Of a DNA stretch of 64,000 bases, positions 45,271-52,840 are shown one piece after another. The notes beneath the pieces were generated by a model. That model ran no database searches, was not told the DNA's origin, and saw only the letters and a list, made by a program, of their open reading frames with translations. The DNA comes from Octadecabacter antarcticus 307 (GTDB taxonomy: Bacteria; Pseudomonadota; Alphaproteobacteria; Rhodobacterales; Rhodobacteraceae): the NCBI RefSeq assembly GCF_000155675.2, contig NC_020911.1:610501-674500 (forward strand). The letters run 5' to 3'. Made by a program: the position numbers and the translations under genes. Numbering within the stretch: position 1 is the first letter of the stretch; each line of letters opens with the position of its first letter.

Positions 45271-46347
45271 ATGGCCGATTTTGACGCGCAAATTCGTGAA
45301 TCCCAGACCCAAGTGCAAGAAGCGCAATTCAAGATTTCAGAACTGACCAGCCGGATTGAAACTGCGCGTCAGAAAATGGCGACGGGGACGGATATCTCTG
45401 TTGATATCGAAAATGCGTCCCTTGAAGATGTGCATGCGCACACTGAATTGATGAACGCGAACATTGCGGAACTGATCATGGGGCTGGACGATGTGACGTC
45501 AGGTTTTCAGCAGGATTTCGATGAAATGCGCTCCAAAACTGGATGGGAAAGCTTTGTTGGGTTCTTTTCCAGTGGCAAATCGGATTCCATGCGCGAAGAA
45601 CGTATGCGCAGCGCGTCGGTTGACGACAAACTGCAAGACCTGATTTCAAAGTCTGATGTCATCACCAAGCTGCTGGAAAACCAACTTCTGATCCTCGAAG
45701 AACAGAAAACCAAGGTCGAAGACAATCTTGGCGCGACGTTGCAGGAACGTGAAACCACCGTTGGCGAACTTGAAGCTGTGCGTGCTGAGATTTTGGACAT
45801 GGATCCTGCGATCATCACGCTTGAGAACAAAATCTCAGTCGAACAGGACGCCGCCGCGCGCACCAAGCTGGAAACAGAATTGGCGGGCATGAACGGTGCC
45901 TATAATGAGGTGGTTCAGCAAGAACAGGTCAAGCTGGCGAAGTCGCAAACGCTGGAACGCTACATCGAGAAGGGTAAGACTTGGATCGACAGTTTGCAGA
46001 ACCAAGCGGCGACGCAGATGGTGCTGATTAACAAGCTGCAAACGGACACCAAGCAGCGGGTTGTGCTGTATGATGCGTTGACCAAATCGCTCAAGACCGC
46101 GCAACAACAAGATGTTGCGCACCGGATTAACGAGATTGGTGTAAAGACGGACCAAGAGGCGCAGACAGCAATGGCCGCAATTGGTTCGGCGACGAACGCG
46201 CGCATGGCCGAGATGATGGAAAAGCACGAGGACCACATGGTGTTCGCGCGCGAAGTGCTGGAGCAAAAGGCCAAGGCGGATGAGCGGTTCATGCGCCGCT
46301 TTGCGAAGATCGTGGAGAAGCACGACAGCAATGAATATGGGGCCTGA
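45271..46347 (+). CDS. Coiled-coil protein, weakly TelA-like; first gene of AAA+ cluster
   Basis: A 358-residue, highly charged, almost entirely helical protein with long coiled-coil stretches (about 5-45, 130-230, 280-345) and no signal peptide or membrane helix. Overall layout recalls TelA/toxic-anion-resistance proteins, but I cannot confirm this by motif. The start at 45271 has GAGG seven bases upstream; a 20-codon extension upstream is not supported. It probably supplies a scaffold or effector for the downstream AAA+ ATPase. The next gene begins at the base after its stop. Confidence 0.75.
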   Translation: MADFDAQIRESQTQVQEAQFKISELTSRIETARQKMATGTDISVDIENASLEDVHAHTELMNANIAELIMGLDDVTSGFQQDFDEMRSKTGWESFVGFFSSGKSDSMREERMRSASVDDKLQDLISKSDVITKLLENQLLILEEQKTKVEDNLGATLQERETTVGELEAVRAEILDMDPAIITLENKISVEQDAAARTKLETELAGMNGAYNEVVQQEQVKLAKSQTLERYIEKGKTWIDSLQNQAATQMVLINKLQTDTKQRVVLYDALTKSLKTAQQQDVAHRINEIGVKTDQEAQTAMAAIGSATNARMAEMMEKHEDHMVFAREVLEQKAKADERFMRRFAKIVEKHDSNEYGA

Positions 46348-46608
46348 TTGAAGTTATTGTCGACACTCCTTAATTTTGCAGTTTGGTTTGCGATTAGGGC
46401 CCTATTCATCGTGGCCCTTTTCGGGGGCATTGGGTTTTTGGCGCAATCTACTTTGGAGCCGGCAACTTCCGAGCGTCAGGAACTAATTAACTATGCCGTT
46501 GGAGCCTTAGTTGCATCGATGACGGTGTGGTTGTTTATTTCTTTGATTAGAATTGTGATTGATGCCAGCTCGTCGTTTCGTCAGGGGCTACAGGAAGGGC
46601 GAAAATGA
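46348..46608 (+). CDS. Small two-helix membrane protein of the AAA+ cluster
   Basis: An 86-residue protein with two membrane helices (VWFAIRALFIVALFGGIGFL and YAVGALVASMTVWLFISLIR). It has a TTG start immediately after the previous stop and overlaps the next gene by four bases (ATGA). It is clearly richer in A/T than its neighbours. No family was recognised. It may anchor the complex to the inner membrane. Confidence 0.6.
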   Translation: MKLLSTLLNFAVWFAIRALFIVALFGGIGFLAQSTLEPATSERQELINYAVGALVASMTVWLFISLIRIVIDASSSFRQGLQEGRK

Positions 46609-47723
46609 CTGACACCGCCTACGACCATTTCCAGCTTGAAGACACCCGCGTCACGCGGCGCTATTTTGGTAAGTTTGAAGCGATTATTGGGCATCTGGGC
46701 CGTGTTGCCGCGACGCTTGAGGCGGAGAACCGTCTGTCTAAGCGTGACGTCGAAGTGATGACGCGCTATATTGTTGGGCTGAATTACACGTTCAAAGCGC
46801 TGGCGCACAAATACCATTTTAGCGGGCGCTTTACCCATGCGGGTAAGCTGACGTTTGACCGTGTTGAATCCGGCTTTCCGGTTTATTCTGAACTGCTGAC
46901 CATGGCGAATGACGCGGCACAAGCGTCGCGGCACCTGCAAGGGATGCGGTCGGTTGAGGAGTTAAAACAGGACATGGTGCGGGTGATCCTGAACGAACAG
47001 GAAACCCCGACAAAGCTGCAATATGCGCTGAGCCAACGGCTGTATTACGAAGAGCTTTCCAAGGGGGAGTTGTTCTGGGCGCGCAATGATCCGCAGGCGG
47101 TTTGGCTGGGCAATAAGGCGCAGATGCGCCGCGAATTCATGGTGCATTGGGCGGTCTATGACAGCCAGATCAACCTGCCGACGATCTACATGATGGAACT
47201 TGAAGACACCGGTAAGGTCGGCCTGCCGAAAGATGATCGCCGCTGGCCCGAAGTGCAGGCGCATCTGATGGCGCAAAGCCTTGGTGGGTTGAAGTTGCTG
47301 ACCATCGCCAAAGGGTTCGATGAGGATTTTGACGACCTGCACCCCAAACGCCTGCGCCGATTTCACGTTGGCCCGATGTACAGCCATGCGTTCACCCGTC
47401 AGGCTGGACCGCTGCGCGAAGTTCTCGAAGTTGCGCGGTCTCCCGTGGGGGAGGACTGGGCGTTGGTCTGGACGCAAGAAGAATTGCTATCCGAGGCAAC
47501 GCGCACAGAAAAGTCTGGCTGGTTCGGGACGGTTGAGCGACAGACATTCGCGCTTGATCCGTTCGCTGGTCGCGGAGCGGAAACCGGCGCCACCAAGGTT
47601 GAGCGCAGCATTATTTTGCCCCAGCGCCCCTATCAGGCCTTGGAAGAACGCAAGCCCGCGGGGTTTGATAATGTGCGCAAGTTTGTGGTTTCGCCGAGTG
47701 GAAGCGTGTTGAGTTATAAATAG
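46605..47723 (+). CDS. Protein of unknown function in the AAA+ cluster
   Basis: A 372-residue soluble protein with mixed helical and beta content and no signal peptide. Recurrent features are an N-terminal VTRRYFGKFEAIIGHLG stretch, a central YYEELSKGELFWARNDPQAV and a C-terminal basic segment ending FVVSPSGSVLSYK. No known domain was recognised. It sits between the small membrane protein (four-base overlap) and the AAA+ gene (46 bases downstream), so it is likely a component of the same system. Confidence 0.75.
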   Translation: MTDTAYDHFQLEDTRVTRRYFGKFEAIIGHLGRVAATLEAENRLSKRDVEVMTRYIVGLNYTFKALAHKYHFSGRFTHAGKLTFDRVESGFPVYSELLTMANDAAQASRHLQGMRSVEELKQDMVRVILNEQETPTKLQYALSQRLYYEELSKGELFWARNDPQAVWLGNKAQMRREFMVHWAVYDSQINLPTIYMMELEDTGKVGLPKDDRRWPEVQAHLMAQSLGGLKLLTIAKGFDEDFDDLHPKRLRRFHVGPMYSHAFTRQAGPLREVLEVARSPVGEDWALVWTQEELLSEATRTEKSGWFGTVERQTFALDPFAGRGAETGATKVERSIILPQRPYQALEERKPAGFDNVRKFVVSPSGSVLSYK

Positions 47724-47740
47724 ATGTTGGATTTTGAGTT

Positions 47741-47758
47741 GTATTTGCCAAGATGAAG
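47741..47758 (+). repeat. Remnant of the GTATTT-GCCAAGATGAAG repeat
   Basis: GTATTTGCCAAGATGAAG, upstream of the AAA+ gene, matches a sequence that recurs in intergenic spacers of many Rhodobacterales genomes (GTATTTTTGCCAAGATGAAG). It is in the 46-base gap and contributes to the ribosome-site region of the ATPase gene. Confidence 0.5.
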
Positions 47759-47769
47759 GTCGAAGTGAG

Positions 47770-49716
47770 ATGAGCCAGACAAGCGACACGATGGAGCTGC
47801 GCGAAGAGGACATTCGCAAGCATTATGACGCTGCCACCGCGATGGTGCAGGGGTTTGATCACACGCCGCGCATTGGGGCGGCCAAGGACGCGCCCGTGGC
47901 GGAAAAGTCGAGCGGTATTGGCACGCGGCGGCGGTTTCGAACGACGACGCCGGGGTTGGTGACGTGGTCGACGGCGCGCAGTGAAGGCGTGCAATTGTTG
48001 GCGCGGATTGAAGGTGCGGGCACGGATAACCTTGGCGGTGACGGGCTGACGTCACCCACGCAAGCGACGGTGCTGCACGGGCTGCGGCGTGCCGTAGCGA
48101 TTGCGCTGGCGGTGGCTGAACAATACGGGATGCGCACGGGGCTGGCGGACCTGAAACGCGCCAACCTTGAAGGATCGCTGGCGGCTGGCAAAAGAACGGA
48201 ATTTTCGGAACTTCTGACCGCCGAGGCGCTGGTCACGATGTATGTTTTCGCCAACGCCACCGCGTTCCTGATGTCATCGCACGCGGGCGAAGACACCGTC
48301 GAAATCGGTGAGGTAGAGGAGGTTTTGACCGACAACGCGACCTTGGCGTTGCACGGTGTTTTGTGGGAGCTTGACCAAGACATCGGGTTGTTTGCCGACA
48401 CCGAACCCAAGCTGGTCGCGACGGTTCTTGCCTACGCCGAAGCGTTGATGGCCAAGGCCGCAGCGCGCGCCACCACCGCCGGACGTTTGGAACCGTTTGT
48501 GGCAGCGTCTTGGAAGGTCGAGGAAGACGGGTTGACCATTCGTGGGTTCACCCCTGCGCGGGCCGCAAAATCGACTACGCTGACGATAAGTTTCAAGAAG
48601 CCGAATGAGGTCGTGGGCAACCACATCGCCAAATATCAGTCGATGAAGCTGGCCAAAATGGTTATGGCCTATGATTTTGAACGTAAGCTGAACCCGTTCG
48701 CCGAACTTGGCGGCTTCATCTTTACGTTCATGGGCGACGGCGCACCGGGGACAGGCAAAACCACGCTGATTCAGATGATGGCGGGGCTGATTTCGGAGTA
48801 TTGCCAGGTTGCTGGCTATCCGTTCCGCTACCAGAACTTGAGCACCGATAATATTGACAGCTACCAGGGTAAATCGGGCCAGAACGCTAAGGCGTTTATC
48901 AATAACGTGATTGATCCGAGCGTGATTGGTTTTGGCACGATTGACGATATTGACCAATTGGCGGGCAAACGTGGGGATCGCCAAAGTTCGGCGGGTCAAT
49001 TGGAAATTACCGCTGTTCTAATGGAGAGCTTTGCGGGTGCGAACACAGTCGTGCGTGGCAATTGCACGTTTGGGATGTTCAGCAACTATCCCGAAAATGT
49101 CGATGATGCGCTGCGCCAACGTGCGGGCGCGCGGTTCTTAGTGGACGGGCCGCAGACGCGGGATGATTACATCGATATTCTGTATCTCTTGATGGGCAAG
49201 AACCACGATATTCCGGTGGGTGATCATGAGGTGTTTTCTGCGCAAGAGATTAAGAAGGCGGTTGCGGCGTCGTTTGAAGGGCATTCAAAACCCCATGAAC
49301 CGGGGTTGATGAATGTGTTTGATCGCGTGAGCGCGACCATTGGTGAGCTGGATACGATTGCGAAGATCGGCACCTATTTGAAGGGTATTCAGGAGGCCGA
49401 TCCGCGCTTTACGGGTCGCGCGATCAAGAACATCACCGACGCCGTTAAGGTCCGCGCGATGGACTTTGAATTGCCGGACGAATGGATGGAAAGGCCTGAC
49501 CTGTTCATGGCGAAGGATTACGACACCAAGCTGGCGATGATTGAGGATCTGCGAAAGCCGATCACGGTCGAAATGGTTATTCAGGAAATCAATCGCTTCG
49601 CCGATTCAGAATTCCGCTATGCGGACAAGTCGGATGAAGTGGCGATTGACGGGCTGGTGCGCGATTTTGAACGGTCCGAGGAAGCCAATCGGCGGTATTT
49701 GGAGAGTAAAGGGTGA
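47770..49716 (+). CDS. AAA+ family ATPase of the nine-gene cluster
   Basis: A 648-residue protein. The N-terminal half (1 to about 280) is helical with no recognised domain. The AAA+ module (about 300-500) has Walker A GDGAPGTGKT (322-331), Walker B GFGTIDDIDQ (388-396, with Asp-Asp in place of Asp-Glu), a sensor-1 Asn in FSNYPENVDD and an arginine-finger segment LRQRAGARF, so ATP hydrolysis is likely. A C-terminal helical region (520-648) follows. It does not resemble FtsH, Clp, MoxR or RuvB closely. It overlaps the next gene by four bases and is probably the motor of the system. Confidence 0.85.
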   Translation: MSQTSDTMELREEDIRKHYDAATAMVQGFDHTPRIGAAKDAPVAEKSSGIGTRRRFRTTTPGLVTWSTARSEGVQLLARIEGAGTDNLGGDGLTSPTQATVLHGLRRAVAIALAVAEQYGMRTGLADLKRANLEGSLAAGKRTEFSELLTAEALVTMYVFANATAFLMSSHAGEDTVEIGEVEEVLTDNATLALHGVLWELDQDIGLFADTEPKLVATVLAYAEALMAKAAARATTAGRLEPFVAASWKVEEDGLTIRGFTPARAAKSTTLTISFKKPNEVVGNHIAKYQSMKLAKMVMAYDFERKLNPFAELGGFIFTFMGDGAPGTGKTTLIQMMAGLISEYCQVAGYPFRYQNLSTDNIDSYQGKSGQNAKAFINNVIDPSVIGFGTIDDIDQLAGKRGDRQSSAGQLEITAVLMESFAGANTVVRGNCTFGMFSNYPENVDDALRQRAGARFLVDGPQTRDDYIDILYLLMGKNHDIPVGDHEVFSAQEIKKAVAASFEGHSKPHEPGLMNVFDRVSATIGELDTIAKIGTYLKGIQEADPRFTGRAIKNITDAVKVRAMDFELPDEWMERPDLFMAKDYDTKLAMIEDLRKPITVEMVIQEINRFADSEFRYADKSDEVAIDGLVRDFERSEEANRRYLESKG

Positions 49717-50057
49717 CGGCAGCCTTCGCCAACGGCCTAATTTTGCCTGCGATCTGTCTGGCCGCGCTGGGCTGGACCGTGCCGCGTGTGCTGGCGATTT
49801 TTTGGCCCGAGGGGGTCAAATGGCTGATGGGATTGGCGTTGGTGTCGACGATCATCATGGCGCTGTGCGGGGCGGGGTTTTTCGCCGTGCTGTATACGAG
49901 CCAAGGGGTGAACATAGATGATTTGTATGCCACGGGCGGGCTATCGGTGCCGCTGCACTTCGCCAAACTGAGTTTGATTTCGGCGCTGCTGTGGGCGCCG
50001 TTGATGGTATTGTCACTGGCGGGTGTGCCGAAGAATTGGGTGAAGGAGGTTTGGTGA
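49713..50057 (+). CDS. Three-helix membrane protein of the AAA+ cluster
   Basis: A 114-residue membrane protein (GTG start overlapping the ATPase stop by four bases) with about three membrane helices: LILPAICLAALGWTVPRVLA, LMGLALVSTIIMALCGAGFF and HFAKLSLISALLWAPLMVLS. A short basic tail (PKNWVKEVW) ends it. No family was recognised. Coupled translation with the ATPase suggests a direct partnership. Confidence 0.65.
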   Translation: MTAAFANGLILPAICLAALGWTVPRVLAIFWPEGVKWLMGLALVSTIIMALCGAGFFAVLYTSQGVNIDDLYATGGLSVPLHFAKLSLISALLWAPLMVLSLAGVPKNWVKEVW

Positions 50058-50506
50058 TGGAAGTGACCAAGTTAAAATATTCAGTTTTGATGTTCATTGT
50101 TGGCCAAGGTGCGTGGGCTGACGTGGTCTCAGATGGTCGGCTTGCCCATGGTGCGTGGGAATGTGCCGCGAAAGCCGGCGTATCAGAATCTTATGTCGAA
50201 CAGTCGGAAGGTCTATTTGACCTAGGCTACAACATTTTGAGTCGAATTATTTCAGAAGCCAAGTCAGGGGAAACCCCCGAGGAAGAATTAGATGATTTGC
50301 CAGTCGGCATAACTTGGCGGATATCGGGCGGTCCATCCACTGATTTCCAACTAGGTGCACTTTGGACCCACTATACAATTGATGCTTACGATGAGACTTG
50401 GCCAGATATCGTAGGAGCAGCATTCGATGTACAAGAGAATTTGCAGATGAAAGCGGCGGATGCAGACTTTCAAACCAAGAACTGTGAATTTTTGGTGCCT
50501 CAATGA
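50057..50506 (+). CDS. Predicted secreted or periplasmic protein of the AAA+ cluster
   Basis: A 149-residue protein with a hydrophobic N-terminus (LKYSVLMFIVGQGAWA, probable signal peptide cleaved about residue 20) and one Cys near the middle and one near the C-terminus (CAAKAG and NCEFLVPQ). Its DNA is noticeably richer in A/T than the large neighbours. It overlaps the preceding stop by one base and the next start by four. No family was recognised; it may be the periplasmic part of the system. Confidence 0.6.
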   Translation: MEVTKLKYSVLMFIVGQGAWADVVSDGRLAHGAWECAAKAGVSESYVEQSEGLFDLGYNILSRIISEAKSGETPEEELDDLPVGITWRISGGPSTDFQLGALWTHYTIDAYDETWPDIVGAAFDVQENLQMKAADADFQTKNCEFLVPQ

Positions 50507-51855
50507 AACGCCTAATCTCTCGCGGTCTGATGTTTGGTAATCTTATCCCCGTGGTCAGTCCTATTTTGGTGGAGCGCTACAACCGTGCCCTGAAGCGGTT
50601 GACCGGCAAGCAAACTGCGCTGCAGGATTTTCACATCGATATTTCGGGCTATTCTCCCGAGATCGGGGATGAGTTGGGGGATGATTTATACCTCAACCAC
50701 CGTGGGGTGAACCGGCAGTTTATTTTGCTGACGACGGAACAGAAAACGGCGCCTTTGTTGAACGCGAAATTCTCGACCTCTCGTGGTATTCTGCGCCAGT
50801 TTATTGTGGCGAACGAGGCGCAGTTGTTTGCGCTGACCGCGCGCGACGGGGTCGCGGGGGAGTTGGTGAATTCTGTCTATGCGTTGGACACACCTGCGCG
50901 CCTGTTCGACATCGGCCGTGTGACGATTGAGGCGGATACGACGGATGGTGCTGTGGCGTCGGCGGCCAAGCTGGGTGGGATGATTGACCAGTTCATGCGC
51001 GACGACGGCGCGTGGTTTGATGATGTTCTGATTGGCAATATGATCGGGCTGGCCAAAGACACAGGCGACATCACCCGCAATCCGGTGCAACTGGCCGATA
51101 TGACGTTCGATCAGGACAATTTCTGGACTGCGCATTTGGGCGGGCTTTATTTGTTTCGCGGGGTGGACGAGCCAGCGGCGATTACGATGGGTGACAAGAC
51201 CGCGTTGGGTGAATTGCCAATTGAAACGGTGTTGCAAGGCGATGAACGATCCGCGATTGCGCAGTTTCTGAAGGTTAATAATCTGGCAGAACCGATTGTC
51301 GACGCGCGTGGCATCGATAGTGCTGCGATCCTGCGCCAAAAAATGGATTTCATCGTGGCGGATGTGGCTGCGGGTCTTGGTGAAGACCTTGCCGGGGCGA
51401 CGCGCCGCGACCTGCGCGCCATGGGGCGGCGGTATTTTGATAAGCTGCCAGCGGCGTGGCGTGCCCTTGCAGATCTGGTGCGCTGGGCAGAAGATGGTGG
51501 CGCATGGCCGCACATCGACAGCGAACATCCCGCGTATTTCTACACGCTGCGGGCCAAGGCGCACAAAGACGCCGATTTGGTGAATATGCTACTGGCCGAA
51601 CTGTCCCCGATGGACGTGCGACAGCTGTTCATTTGTCACAAAGAAGCGTTTTACAGTGCCTATATGGGCTGGACGGACGAAAAGAAGGACTATGTGGCAC
51701 AATTCCTGTCAACCGAGTATCAGGTAGATAAGGCAGGCACGCGCGACGCGTTGTTTGGTTTTGAGGCGGCGATGAGTGAACCAAGCGGCCCGCCACCTTT
51801 GCCCGGTCTGATTGAACGGGTCGGGCCATGGGGCGCGGTGCGGCGGCGTGATTAA
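50503..51855 (+). CDS. DUF6638-like protein of the AAA+ cluster
   Basis: A 450-residue soluble protein beginning MKRLISRGLMFGNLIPVVSP and reading LVERYNRALKRLTGK, DELGDDLYLNHRGVNRQFIL and, at the C-terminus, GPPPLPGLIERVGPWGAVRR. From memory this resembles the DUF6638 family found in Rhodobacterales beside AAA ATPases; I cannot confirm it by search. No catalytic motif was recognised. Its start overlaps the preceding stop by four bases. Confidence 0.72.
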   Translation: MKRLISRGLMFGNLIPVVSPILVERYNRALKRLTGKQTALQDFHIDISGYSPEIGDELGDDLYLNHRGVNRQFILLTTEQKTAPLLNAKFSTSRGILRQFIVANEAQLFALTARDGVAGELVNSVYALDTPARLFDIGRVTIEADTTDGAVASAAKLGGMIDQFMRDDGAWFDDVLIGNMIGLAKDTGDITRNPVQLADMTFDQDNFWTAHLGGLYLFRGVDEPAAITMGDKTALGELPIETVLQGDERSAIAQFLKVNNLAEPIVDARGIDSAAILRQKMDFIVADVAAGLGEDLAGATRRDLRAMGRRYFDKLPAAWRALADLVRWAEDGGAWPHIDSEHPAYFYTLRAKAHKDADLVNMLLAELSPMDVRQLFICHKEAFYSAYMGWTDEKKDYVAQFLSTEYQVDKAGTRDALFGFEAAMSEPSGPPPLPGLIERVGPWGAVRRRD

Positions 51856-51890
51856 GAACGGCGTGATTAAGCCAAGGACGGGGGCAGGAT

Positions 51891-52151
51891 ATGGGTTTTG
51901 TTAGATTGGTCTTAGGCGGTTTCGTTATTCTGGGTGTCGTATATATCTGCGTCACGCTGTATTCACGGTCGGTGCGGCGCGAAAAATTGGAAGGCTGGTG
52001 GGACGAGGAACCGGTTGAGGCGATGACCCGAGAAGCCTATATCGCCGATGGGATGGCAAAGTATGAAAACGGGCTGCGCAAGCGGCTTATCTTACTGGTC
52101 TTTATCATTCCGCCAATCATTGTCGGTACTATTATTTATTTCATTAACTGA
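51891..52151 (+). CDS. Small two-helix membrane protein of the AAA+ cluster
   Basis: An 86-residue protein with an N-terminal helix (FVRLVLGGFVILGVVYICVT), a charged middle (RREKLEGWWDEEPVEAMTRE) and a C-terminal helix (LILLVFIIPPIIVGTIIYFI). The topology resembles a membrane-tethered adaptor. It is 35 bases after the DUF6638-like gene and 11 bases before the DUF1523 gene. No family was recognised. Confidence 0.65.
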   Translation: MGFVRLVLGGFVILGVVYICVTLYSRSVRREKLEGWWDEEPVEAMTREAYIADGMAKYENGLRKRLILLVFIIPPIIVGTIIYFIN

Positions 52152-52162
52152 AAGCTGAAGTC

Positions 52163-52840
52163 ATGCGCAATATCCGTCGAGTTTTCCGTGTCATACTGTT
52201 CCTGATCGTCGCATCATGGTTGCATTATGTAATGCCGCAGCAGGACACAGTCCGGATGACAGGTATTTCTGACCGGAATGAAACGCTGTCAAGTATGCAA
52301 CGACTGTTCTTTGCACAGGTAGATAGCGGCACGACAGAAGGCACTTTTCGTGACTTGCGTCTTATCAATACACAAAAACAACGGACCTATCTTCTTGGCC
52401 TTATCCATCGCGGCAGTGAGGAGACGATGGTCTATCGCAATGAAGATACAGGCTGGATTTACCCGCCGTATTTCAAATTCGACAGTTCTAACCTGGAGGC
52501 AGAAGCCGAGGATATGTTGTCCACATCGGCGTCGCCAATATGGGTTGAAATCACGCACTACGGCTGGCGGAATGAATGGTTGTCCATCTATCCAAACGCC
52601 GTGTCAATCCGCCCCGCCCCGAGCGAAGACTATCGCCCGTTTCCATGGGTGAACCTGATTATCTTTGTCGTCATGATTGGTGGATTGCTGTTCTTGCGCG
52701 CCATGTGGCGGCAATTTCGTGAGCGCACAATCGACCCGCTGGCCGACAAGGTCGGGGATCAGATGGATCACGTAAATGCGGATCTGTCAGAACGAAAGGG
52801 GCGTGTTTCCCGTTGGCTTGGGACGTGGCGCAAGAAGTAG
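52163..52840 (+). CDS. DUF1523-family membrane protein
   Basis: A 225-residue protein matching DUF1523: one N-terminal membrane helix (VFRVILFLIVASWLHYVMP), a periplasmic domain with DTGWIYPPYFKFDSSNLEAE and ITHYGWRNEWLSIYPNA, a second helix (VNLIIFVVMIGGLLFL) and a basic cytoplasmic tail. The family is restricted mainly to alphaproteobacteria and has no known function. It is the last gene of the nine-gene unit; a hairpin with a dispersed repeat follows. Confidence 0.88.
   Translation: MRNIRRVFRVILFLIVASWLHYVMPQQDTVRMTGISDRNETLSSMQRLFFAQVDSGTTEGTFRDLRLINTQKQRTYLLGLIHRGSEETMVYRNEDTGWIYPPYFKFDSSNLEAEAEDMLSTSASPIWVEITHYGWRNEWLSIYPNAVSIRPAPSEDYRPFPWVNLIIFVVMIGGLLFLRAMWRQFRERTIDPLADKVGDQMDHVNADLSERKGRVSRWLGTWRKK

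Follow-up and report, generated by a model that had tools for sequence, protein, structure and literature searches.

A four-gene AAA+ module with two hypervariable cassette slots in Octadecabacter antarcticus 307

Four of nine adjacent open reading frames (ORFs g1 to g9) of Octadecabacter antarcticus 307, namely g1, g3, g4 and g7, form one evolutionary module: they are present or absent together and make up a slow core with two cassette slots of fast turnover. All nine lie on the + strand at 45271-52840 of the window, the 64,000-nucleotide stretch of contig NC_020911.1 (positions 610,501 to 674,500) analyzed here, in a genome of 4.88 Mb on 2 contigs. A first-pass annotation had described nine co-directional genes with overlapping junctions, which we recovered along with their ATGA, GTGA and TGATG overlaps, and had taken all nine for one unit or complex; that broader claim failed, as only the four core genes behave as a unit. 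Comparisons across loci used 80 named loci, chosen as the top 80 in g4 similarity and for that reason biased to relatives. One of the 80 (L027) was excluded from the slot counts, its g4 start having been miscalled, and slot ORFs were called mechanically, start codons included. The features are as follows:

45271..46347, + strand: g1, core gene, all-helical coiled-coil protein of 358 residues (85% mean column identity over 48 rows)
46348..46604, no strand: slot S1, the hypervariable stretch separating g1 from g3 (from -4 to 780 bp long in 77 loci)
46348..46608, + strand: g2, slot S1 cargo, small protein with two transmembrane segments (2 hydrophobic stretches) and a TTG start; a singleton among 185 slot ORFs
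46605..47723, + strand: g3, core gene, 372 residues, helical N domain and alpha/beta C domain
47770..49716, + strand: g4, core gene, AAA+ ATPase of 648 residues, classical AAA clade (PF00004, 46 bits; alignment motifs; PDB profile matches)
49717..50502, no strand: slot S2, the hypervariable stretch separating g4 from g7 (from 34 to 2382 bp long in 76 loci)
49713..50057, + strand: g5, slot S2, protein of 114 residues with three transmembrane segments (cluster c0: the window copy and 18 at other loci)
50057..50506, + strand: g6, orphan slot S2 cargo, 149 residues, N terminus signal-peptide-like by eye
50503..51855, + strand: g7, core gene, DUF6638 protein of 450 residues (PF20343, 768 bits)
51891..52151, + strand: g8, host neighbor paired with g9, small protein with two transmembrane segments (12 of 17 core-negative loci have it upstream of DUF1523)
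52163..52840, + strand: g9, host neighbor, DUF1523 membrane protein (PF07509, 196 bits; in 48 of 51 genomes)

The boundaries of the module were drawn from 51 genomes (the window's own, 10 of the same genus and 40 of the same family), 50 of which are at least 90% complete. Excluded from this set were G126, G142, G158 and G174, all g3-positive, as well as 8 of the 18 same-genus genomes, 61-89% complete, 4 of which were g3-positive (2 by partial matches) and 4 g3-negative. Each of g1, g4 and g7 occurred in 31 of the 51 genomes, the set being identical for the three and equal to the g3-positive genomes, and two genera (g49 and g50) had both core-positive and core-negative members. Locus distances, computed for 74 loci, correlated with r of 0.82-0.87 within the core, 0.54-0.65 between the core and g8/g9, and 0.74 between g8 and g9. 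The last two genes occur without the core: DUF1523 was found in 17 of the 20 genomes lacking it, mostly with g8 alongside. A g5 homologue was kept with g9 (and g8) in 5 of these 17 loci, with no core gene there, and since core-positive genomes have g5 between g4 and g7, the core was gained or lost on either side of it as a set of four. At L197, genes for a semialdehyde dehydrogenase, an esterase, a short-chain dehydrogenase/reductase and YkuD are followed by g5-g8-g9 with no core gene; 4 of the 5 upstream neighbors of the window are kept and the cupin gene was not found there. Judged by its gene order, L197 is an empty site of the core. The site is not universal, as the dehydrogenase lies within 10 kb in 43, YkuD in 19 and the downstream aldehyde dehydrogenase in 21 of the 80 positive loci.

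The closest named relatives of g4 are from Octadecabacter and Pseudooctadecabacter. Gene order, the conservation of which the first-pass annotation had put forward as a check, is kept for the core well beyond such close relatives: we found g1-g3-g4-g7 in a Mesorhizobium-type genome family (f33, typed by names), in one Sinorhizobium meliloti record and in 2 of 4 Vibrio records. The genes 3' of the core differ there, with DUF2333 in the Sinorhizobium record and in L156, and mfd, not g8-g9, in Vibrio. Of 398 genomes sampled from the whole phylum, 26 contained g3; so did a single one, G109 itself, of the 274 searched from the class of G109 (taken to be Gammaproteobacteria by assumption only), and 10 of 72,556 plasmid records (from Vibrio, Sinorhizobium, Rhizobium and Shinella). 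Going by these homology searches, the module is present in many marine and some soil bacteria. Two Vibrio records of 0.9 Mb labeled 'plasmid' (L184, L185) have mfd directly downstream of the four-gene core. On the Rhizobium leguminosarum plasmid pSK03, a lone g1-like protein of 25% identity (L222:8794-11148) stands beside DUF2333; the thymidine kinase, DUF2333 and fhs neighbors are those seen where the Sinorhizobium record has the full core, and only the diverged g1 is found. g1 may diverge quickly once the rest of the core is gone.

Across the 80 loci, g1, g3, g4, g7, g8 and g9 were all found in 75, with constant order and strand; four of the five exceptions are at contig ends and the fifth, L037, is full-length and lacks g7-g9. 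Spacing was constant between g7 and g8 (-10 to 15 bp) and between g8 and g9 (7 to 31 bp) and short between g3 and g4 (15 to 472 bp, median 69), the variation being concentrated in g1-g3 and g4-g7. The 185 slot ORFs (64 in S1 and 121 in S2, including the window's own g2 in S1 and g5 and g6 in S2) fell into 112 clusters, of which 87 were singletons. Neither g2 nor g6 had a relative in the slots examined, g5 was confined to some loci, and for g6 the only match among 5.8 billion proteins (18 candidates scored) was its own sequence.

The turnover was clearest in close pairs, defined as loci with g4 at least 95% identical (101 nonindependent pairs from 27 loci, mostly Ruegeria), where we called DNA alignable if over half of the shorter copy aligned. 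By this measure S1 was alignable in 7 of 97 pairs (any match in 8) and S2 in 8 of 101 (any match in 20), compared with 66 of 101 (any match in 77) for g8, a control of about the length of S1, and 40 of 101 (any match in 101) for the 300 bp upstream of g1. A slot protein family was shared in 8 of 97 pairs for S1 and 14 of 101 for S2. In eight pairs that we inspected, again mostly Ruegeria and nonindependent, the DNA of the four core genes was 79-92% identical. In seven of these pairs the S1 copies were without similarity, and in the eighth S1 was too short; for S2, four pairs were without similarity, one matched over 35 bp and three were alignable, all with the g5 family. Slot ORFs were lower in G+C than their own core genes, by a mean of -0.075 (61 S1 ORFs) and -0.066 (109 S2 ORFs). 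The earlier remark that the small genes of the window are A/T-richer holds for g2, g6 and g8 (47-48% G+C vs. 57% for g3, g4 and g7) but not for g5 (59%).

Slot-2 inserts are often fitted to the start of g7. Of 76 loci, 47 have at least 60 open codons in the frame that ends in the TGA overlapping the g7 start, compared with 3 and 7 for the remaining two frames. In 40 of 74 loci a called ORF begins at a start codon that overlaps the stop of g4; this count is softer, since starts were assigned mechanically and GTGA or ATGA is a frequent end of g4 (61 of 80 loci). In the window the junctions are 0 bp at g1/g2, -4 at g2/g3 and +46 at g3/g4, followed by overlaps at g4/g5 (-4, GTGA), g5/g6 (-1, TGATG) and g6/g7 (-4, ATGA) and by spacers at g7/g8 (+35) and g8/g9 (+11); g2 starts with TTG and g5 with GTG. 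Scans for promoters (4 vs. 4.8) and terminators (12 vs. 9.6) gave about as many hits as shuffled sequence. Duplicates of core-gene ends within slots were found in 4 of 79 loci (139 slots scanned): copies of the g4 C-terminal end in S2 of L076 (60 residues) and L077 (36 residues), and of the g3 start in S1 of L046 (26 residues, with a g1-end piece as well) and L061 (23 residues). At L089 (genome G008), a second g3 start lies inside the slot, 426 bp upstream of the first. These duplicated ends look like exchange scars. In L046, L061 and L076 a core-end fragment lies between two inserts, as though an incoming cassette had brought its flanks along without displacing the old one.

To characterize the cargo, we scanned 75 of 99 slot-2 proteins (the rest being doubtful ORFs or belonging to recurring families) and 57 of 62 slot-1 proteins. 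Most slot genes encode small proteins with one to four membrane stretches, and some encode soluble Abi- or PIN-like ones. The commonest slot-2 content is the g5 family (18 loci and the window), followed by a family of about 280 residues with two transmembrane segments (11 ORFs) that showed no named domain in the members scanned; L057 has a broken-looking member of the latter and then a putAbiC ORF. Pfam (E <= 0.001) found putAbiC (L057), AbiJ_NTD4 (L073) and DUF2971 (L081) once each among the slot-2 proteins. L072 (11947-13091) carries DUF433 and PIN_10 proteins in overlapping ORFs between g4 and g7, a pair that resembles a toxin-antitoxin pair. PADLOC added PDC-S31 at L081, overlapping DUF2971, as well as matches to AbiP and CARF/HEPN models, given here for the slot-2 proteins as a group. 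DUF4279 (L042) was the sole clear domain among the 57 slot-1 proteins, and the window's g2 reached YLATT below threshold (E 0.0016, 18.7 bits vs. a cut-off of 26.7). Among the rhizobial loci inspected, L151 has a DUF559 endonuclease in slot 2, and slot 2 of the Sinorhizobium record contains an insertion sequence as well as a gene annotated as an endonuclease domain. By name or known role we take putAbiC, AbiJ_NTD4 and PIN_10/DUF433 to be conflict-type; on that assignment, conflict-type domains are the majority of the recognizable slot-2 domains and a small minority of all. With one member of each family tried against plasmids, c1 gave one partial match and c4 none. A protein of family c9 (L024:11932-12642), in which HEPN/DUF4145 is weakly hinted at, shares 42% identity with hypothetical proteins of four Leptospira plasmids (L. 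interrogans; L223, L224), which suggests cross-phylum transfer.

Among the nine proteins Pfam gave PF00004 for g4 (E 9e-12; 46 bits vs. a cut-off of 21.2), DUF6638 for g7 and DUF1523 for g9, in agreement with the labels proposed earlier for the last two; none of the remaining six passed the cut-off, and NCBIfam and PADLOC yielded nothing specific beyond this. The PF00004 match places g4 in the classical AAA clade, and its N-terminal ~300 residues have no family assigned. The first-pass annotation considered the AAA+ motifs intact, and most are: Walker A (322-331, GDGxPGTGKT), a pore-loop-1-like YQG (Y365-Q-G367) and the arginines R449, R451 and R455 of the second region of homology are invariant in 14 rows, sensor-1 N439 is present, and a sensor-2-like G-R is seen in the alignment. 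Walker B is not intact, because it reads F-G-T-I-D-D-I-D with Asp393 in place of the catalytic Glu. Asp393 is invariant in all 14 rows, including rhizobia and Vibrio, and in the PDB profile alignment it pairs with the E of FIDEL in 5ubv. Profile searches of the PDB matched i-AAA, VCP-like proteins and Rpt4, and single-sequence searches the i-AAA domain first and then FIGNL1, Vps4 and katanin among others. PADLOC matches of g4 were weak (TRIP13, 24 bits; IetA; Cas5d) and reflect a generic AAA domain. The earlier statement that no known AAA+ system matches therefore stands, as far as Pfam, NCBIfam, PADLOC and PDB sequence searches name none. No homologues of g4 were found among 50,697 phage records.

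We tentatively propose, at less than an even chance, that the module is an AAA+ chassis running exchangeable cassettes, probably in conflict. g4 would form a hexameric AAA ring, probably slowed by its D-D Walker B, that threads or remodels a substrate via the Y-Q-G pore loop; the long coiled coil of g1 would be the likeliest substrate or scaffold, and g3 and g7 would serve as adaptors. The core would then be a constant sensor or remodeler, and the slot genes exchangeable outputs or specificity parts, checked or assembled by the core and co-translated with it. The turnover appears easier to reconcile with conflict, be it against phages, mobile elements or kin, than with plain housekeeping. A bolder version, which we find doubtful, would make this a conflict-system class of its own, with a four-protein D-D Walker B chassis and in-frame effector/immunity cassettes in two slots, loaded by recombination at core-gene ends. 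Several observations weigh against a role in conflict. The core evolves slowly and is widespread within one family, which might equally be true of a housekeeping system; the window flanks are metabolic genes with no defense island; and no core protein convincingly matched a defense system in PADLOC. Of the 75 slot-2 proteins scanned only 5 had a Pfam domain (E <= 0.001), a figure with no random-gene baseline, and the commonest slot-2 content, the g5 family, is also found as a host gene in core-negative loci. Low slot G+C is by itself no proof of foreign origin, since g8, a host gene, deviates about as much (-0.063).

Nearly as likely is an AAA+ machine for housekeeping or stress, located in the cytosol or inner membrane, in which two gaps tolerate insertions and the slot genes are passengers. 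The slow and coherent evolution of the core would be expected of it, as would the common slot content of small membrane proteins without known domains, and defense hotspots with conserved flanks are known in other genera, according to the part of PMC10250203 used here. Passengers would less readily account for inserts in frame with and overlapping the g7 start, for the limitation of insertions to two of five gaps (save g3-g4 gaps of up to 472 bp), and for the absence of the core from 20 of 51 relatives in a set of nearly complete genomes.

An unlikely alternative is a bacterial Vps4/ESCRT-III-like or Ter/TelA-like device in which g1 polymerizes on membranes and g4 disassembles it. The FIGNL1, Vps4 and katanin matches of g4, its pore loop and sensor-2-like G-R, and the length of the g1 coiled coil speak for such a device, and a Vipp1 filament appeared at rank 16 (E 0.097) in the weak Foldseek list of g1. 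However, the AlphaFold2 model of g1, all helix with a predicted local distance difference test (pLDDT) score of 68, had no Foldseek match at E <= 0.001 and resembled generic coiled coils. No kinship of g1 with TelA or PspA was detected by Pfam or hhalign: the window copy matched neither TelA (PF05816) nor PspA_IM30 at E <= 1, TelA was absent among the best 25 of 46 families listed for 18 g1 members, and profile comparisons were not significant for TelA (P 0.12-0.73) or PspA (12 rows; P 0.096). A PspA-TelA control gave P 0.043, showing that such P values mean little. The window genome (G000) has a true TelA gene elsewhere (C2:1443649-1444635) and no PspA_IM30 match, PspA_IM30 being present in 13 of 26 genomes searched. 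We regard the PADLOC matches of g1 (REase_II, 18 bits; NsnC, 12 bits) as spurious coiled-coil noise; the Vibrio g1 is 35% identical.

No Pfam entry was found for g1 or g3. In g3, a helical N domain (14-153) precedes an alpha/beta C domain (160-372); a TerB-like N domain suspected by eye had no Pfam support in 32 members. For the C domain, T-fold enzymes are a candidate fold match. PDB sequence-profile searches with g1, g3, g7 and g9 returned nothing convincing, a literature search on DUF6638 found no paper, and the titles and abstract starts surveyed, which covered the larger result sets in part, contained no description of the cluster. The g7 frame has an in-frame stop or is split in G007 (C11:46604-47921) and G242 (C1:119476-120756), possibly because g7 is decaying there or because of a sequencing error.

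A membrane-spanning complex of all nine proteins, part of it periplasmic, as suggested by the tight overlaps in the window, is very improbable and not comparable in likelihood to a housekeeping machine. We rejected it on co-occurrence in the 51 genomes and on the slot data, which contradict an obligatory place for g2, g6, g8 and g9, with g2 and g6 lacking relatives in other slots, g8-g9 found without the core, and the Vibrio and Sinorhizobium cores followed by mfd or DUF2333 in place of g8-g9.

If the slots hold effectors or specificity factors, they would amount to a large natural library of swappable membrane effectors served by one constant ATPase. Even if they do not, four co-inherited families now have a boundary, an empty site and, for g3, a first good fold, and the defined boundary lets deletion and binding work target the right four genes.

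The module shares features with several known systems. Polymorphic toxin/immunity loci stack displaced cassettes separated by core-gene remnants, but no toxin scaffold was seen here and the core is an AAA+ module. FtsH/i-AAA is the best PDB match of g4 by sequence and profile; unlike it, g4 has no M41 peptidase match at E <= 1 in Pfam or NCBIfam and no hydrophobic stretch by a simple hydropathy rule. TRIP13/Pch2 of the HORMA type of cyclic-oligonucleotide-based antiphage signaling system (CBASS) is likewise a classical AAA remodeler, which g4 presumably resembles in its sensor-2-like G-R and weakly matches in PADLOC, whereas none of the nine proteins matched HORMA or CD-NTase at E <= 1 and the N-terminal part of g4 is without a family. 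Core defense hotspots, as described in the part of PMC10250203 considered, have variable genes between conserved genes, as here; the present inserts differ in comprising just one or a few genes, in sitting in frame within an operon and in the scars of core genes at some loci. The MoxR-vWA 'ternary' conflict systems (eLife 2020, PMC7159879) combine an AAA+ chaperone core with variable effectors; g4 matches PF00004 and not MoxR, and no MoxR, vWA or STAND protein was found among the nine at E <= 1. The logic of a constant core with swapped cassettes nevertheless looks like that of the MoxR-vWA systems, to the extent that the part of PMC7159879 drawn on here describes them, with an AAA+ core and variable parts in both and different proteins filling the roles.

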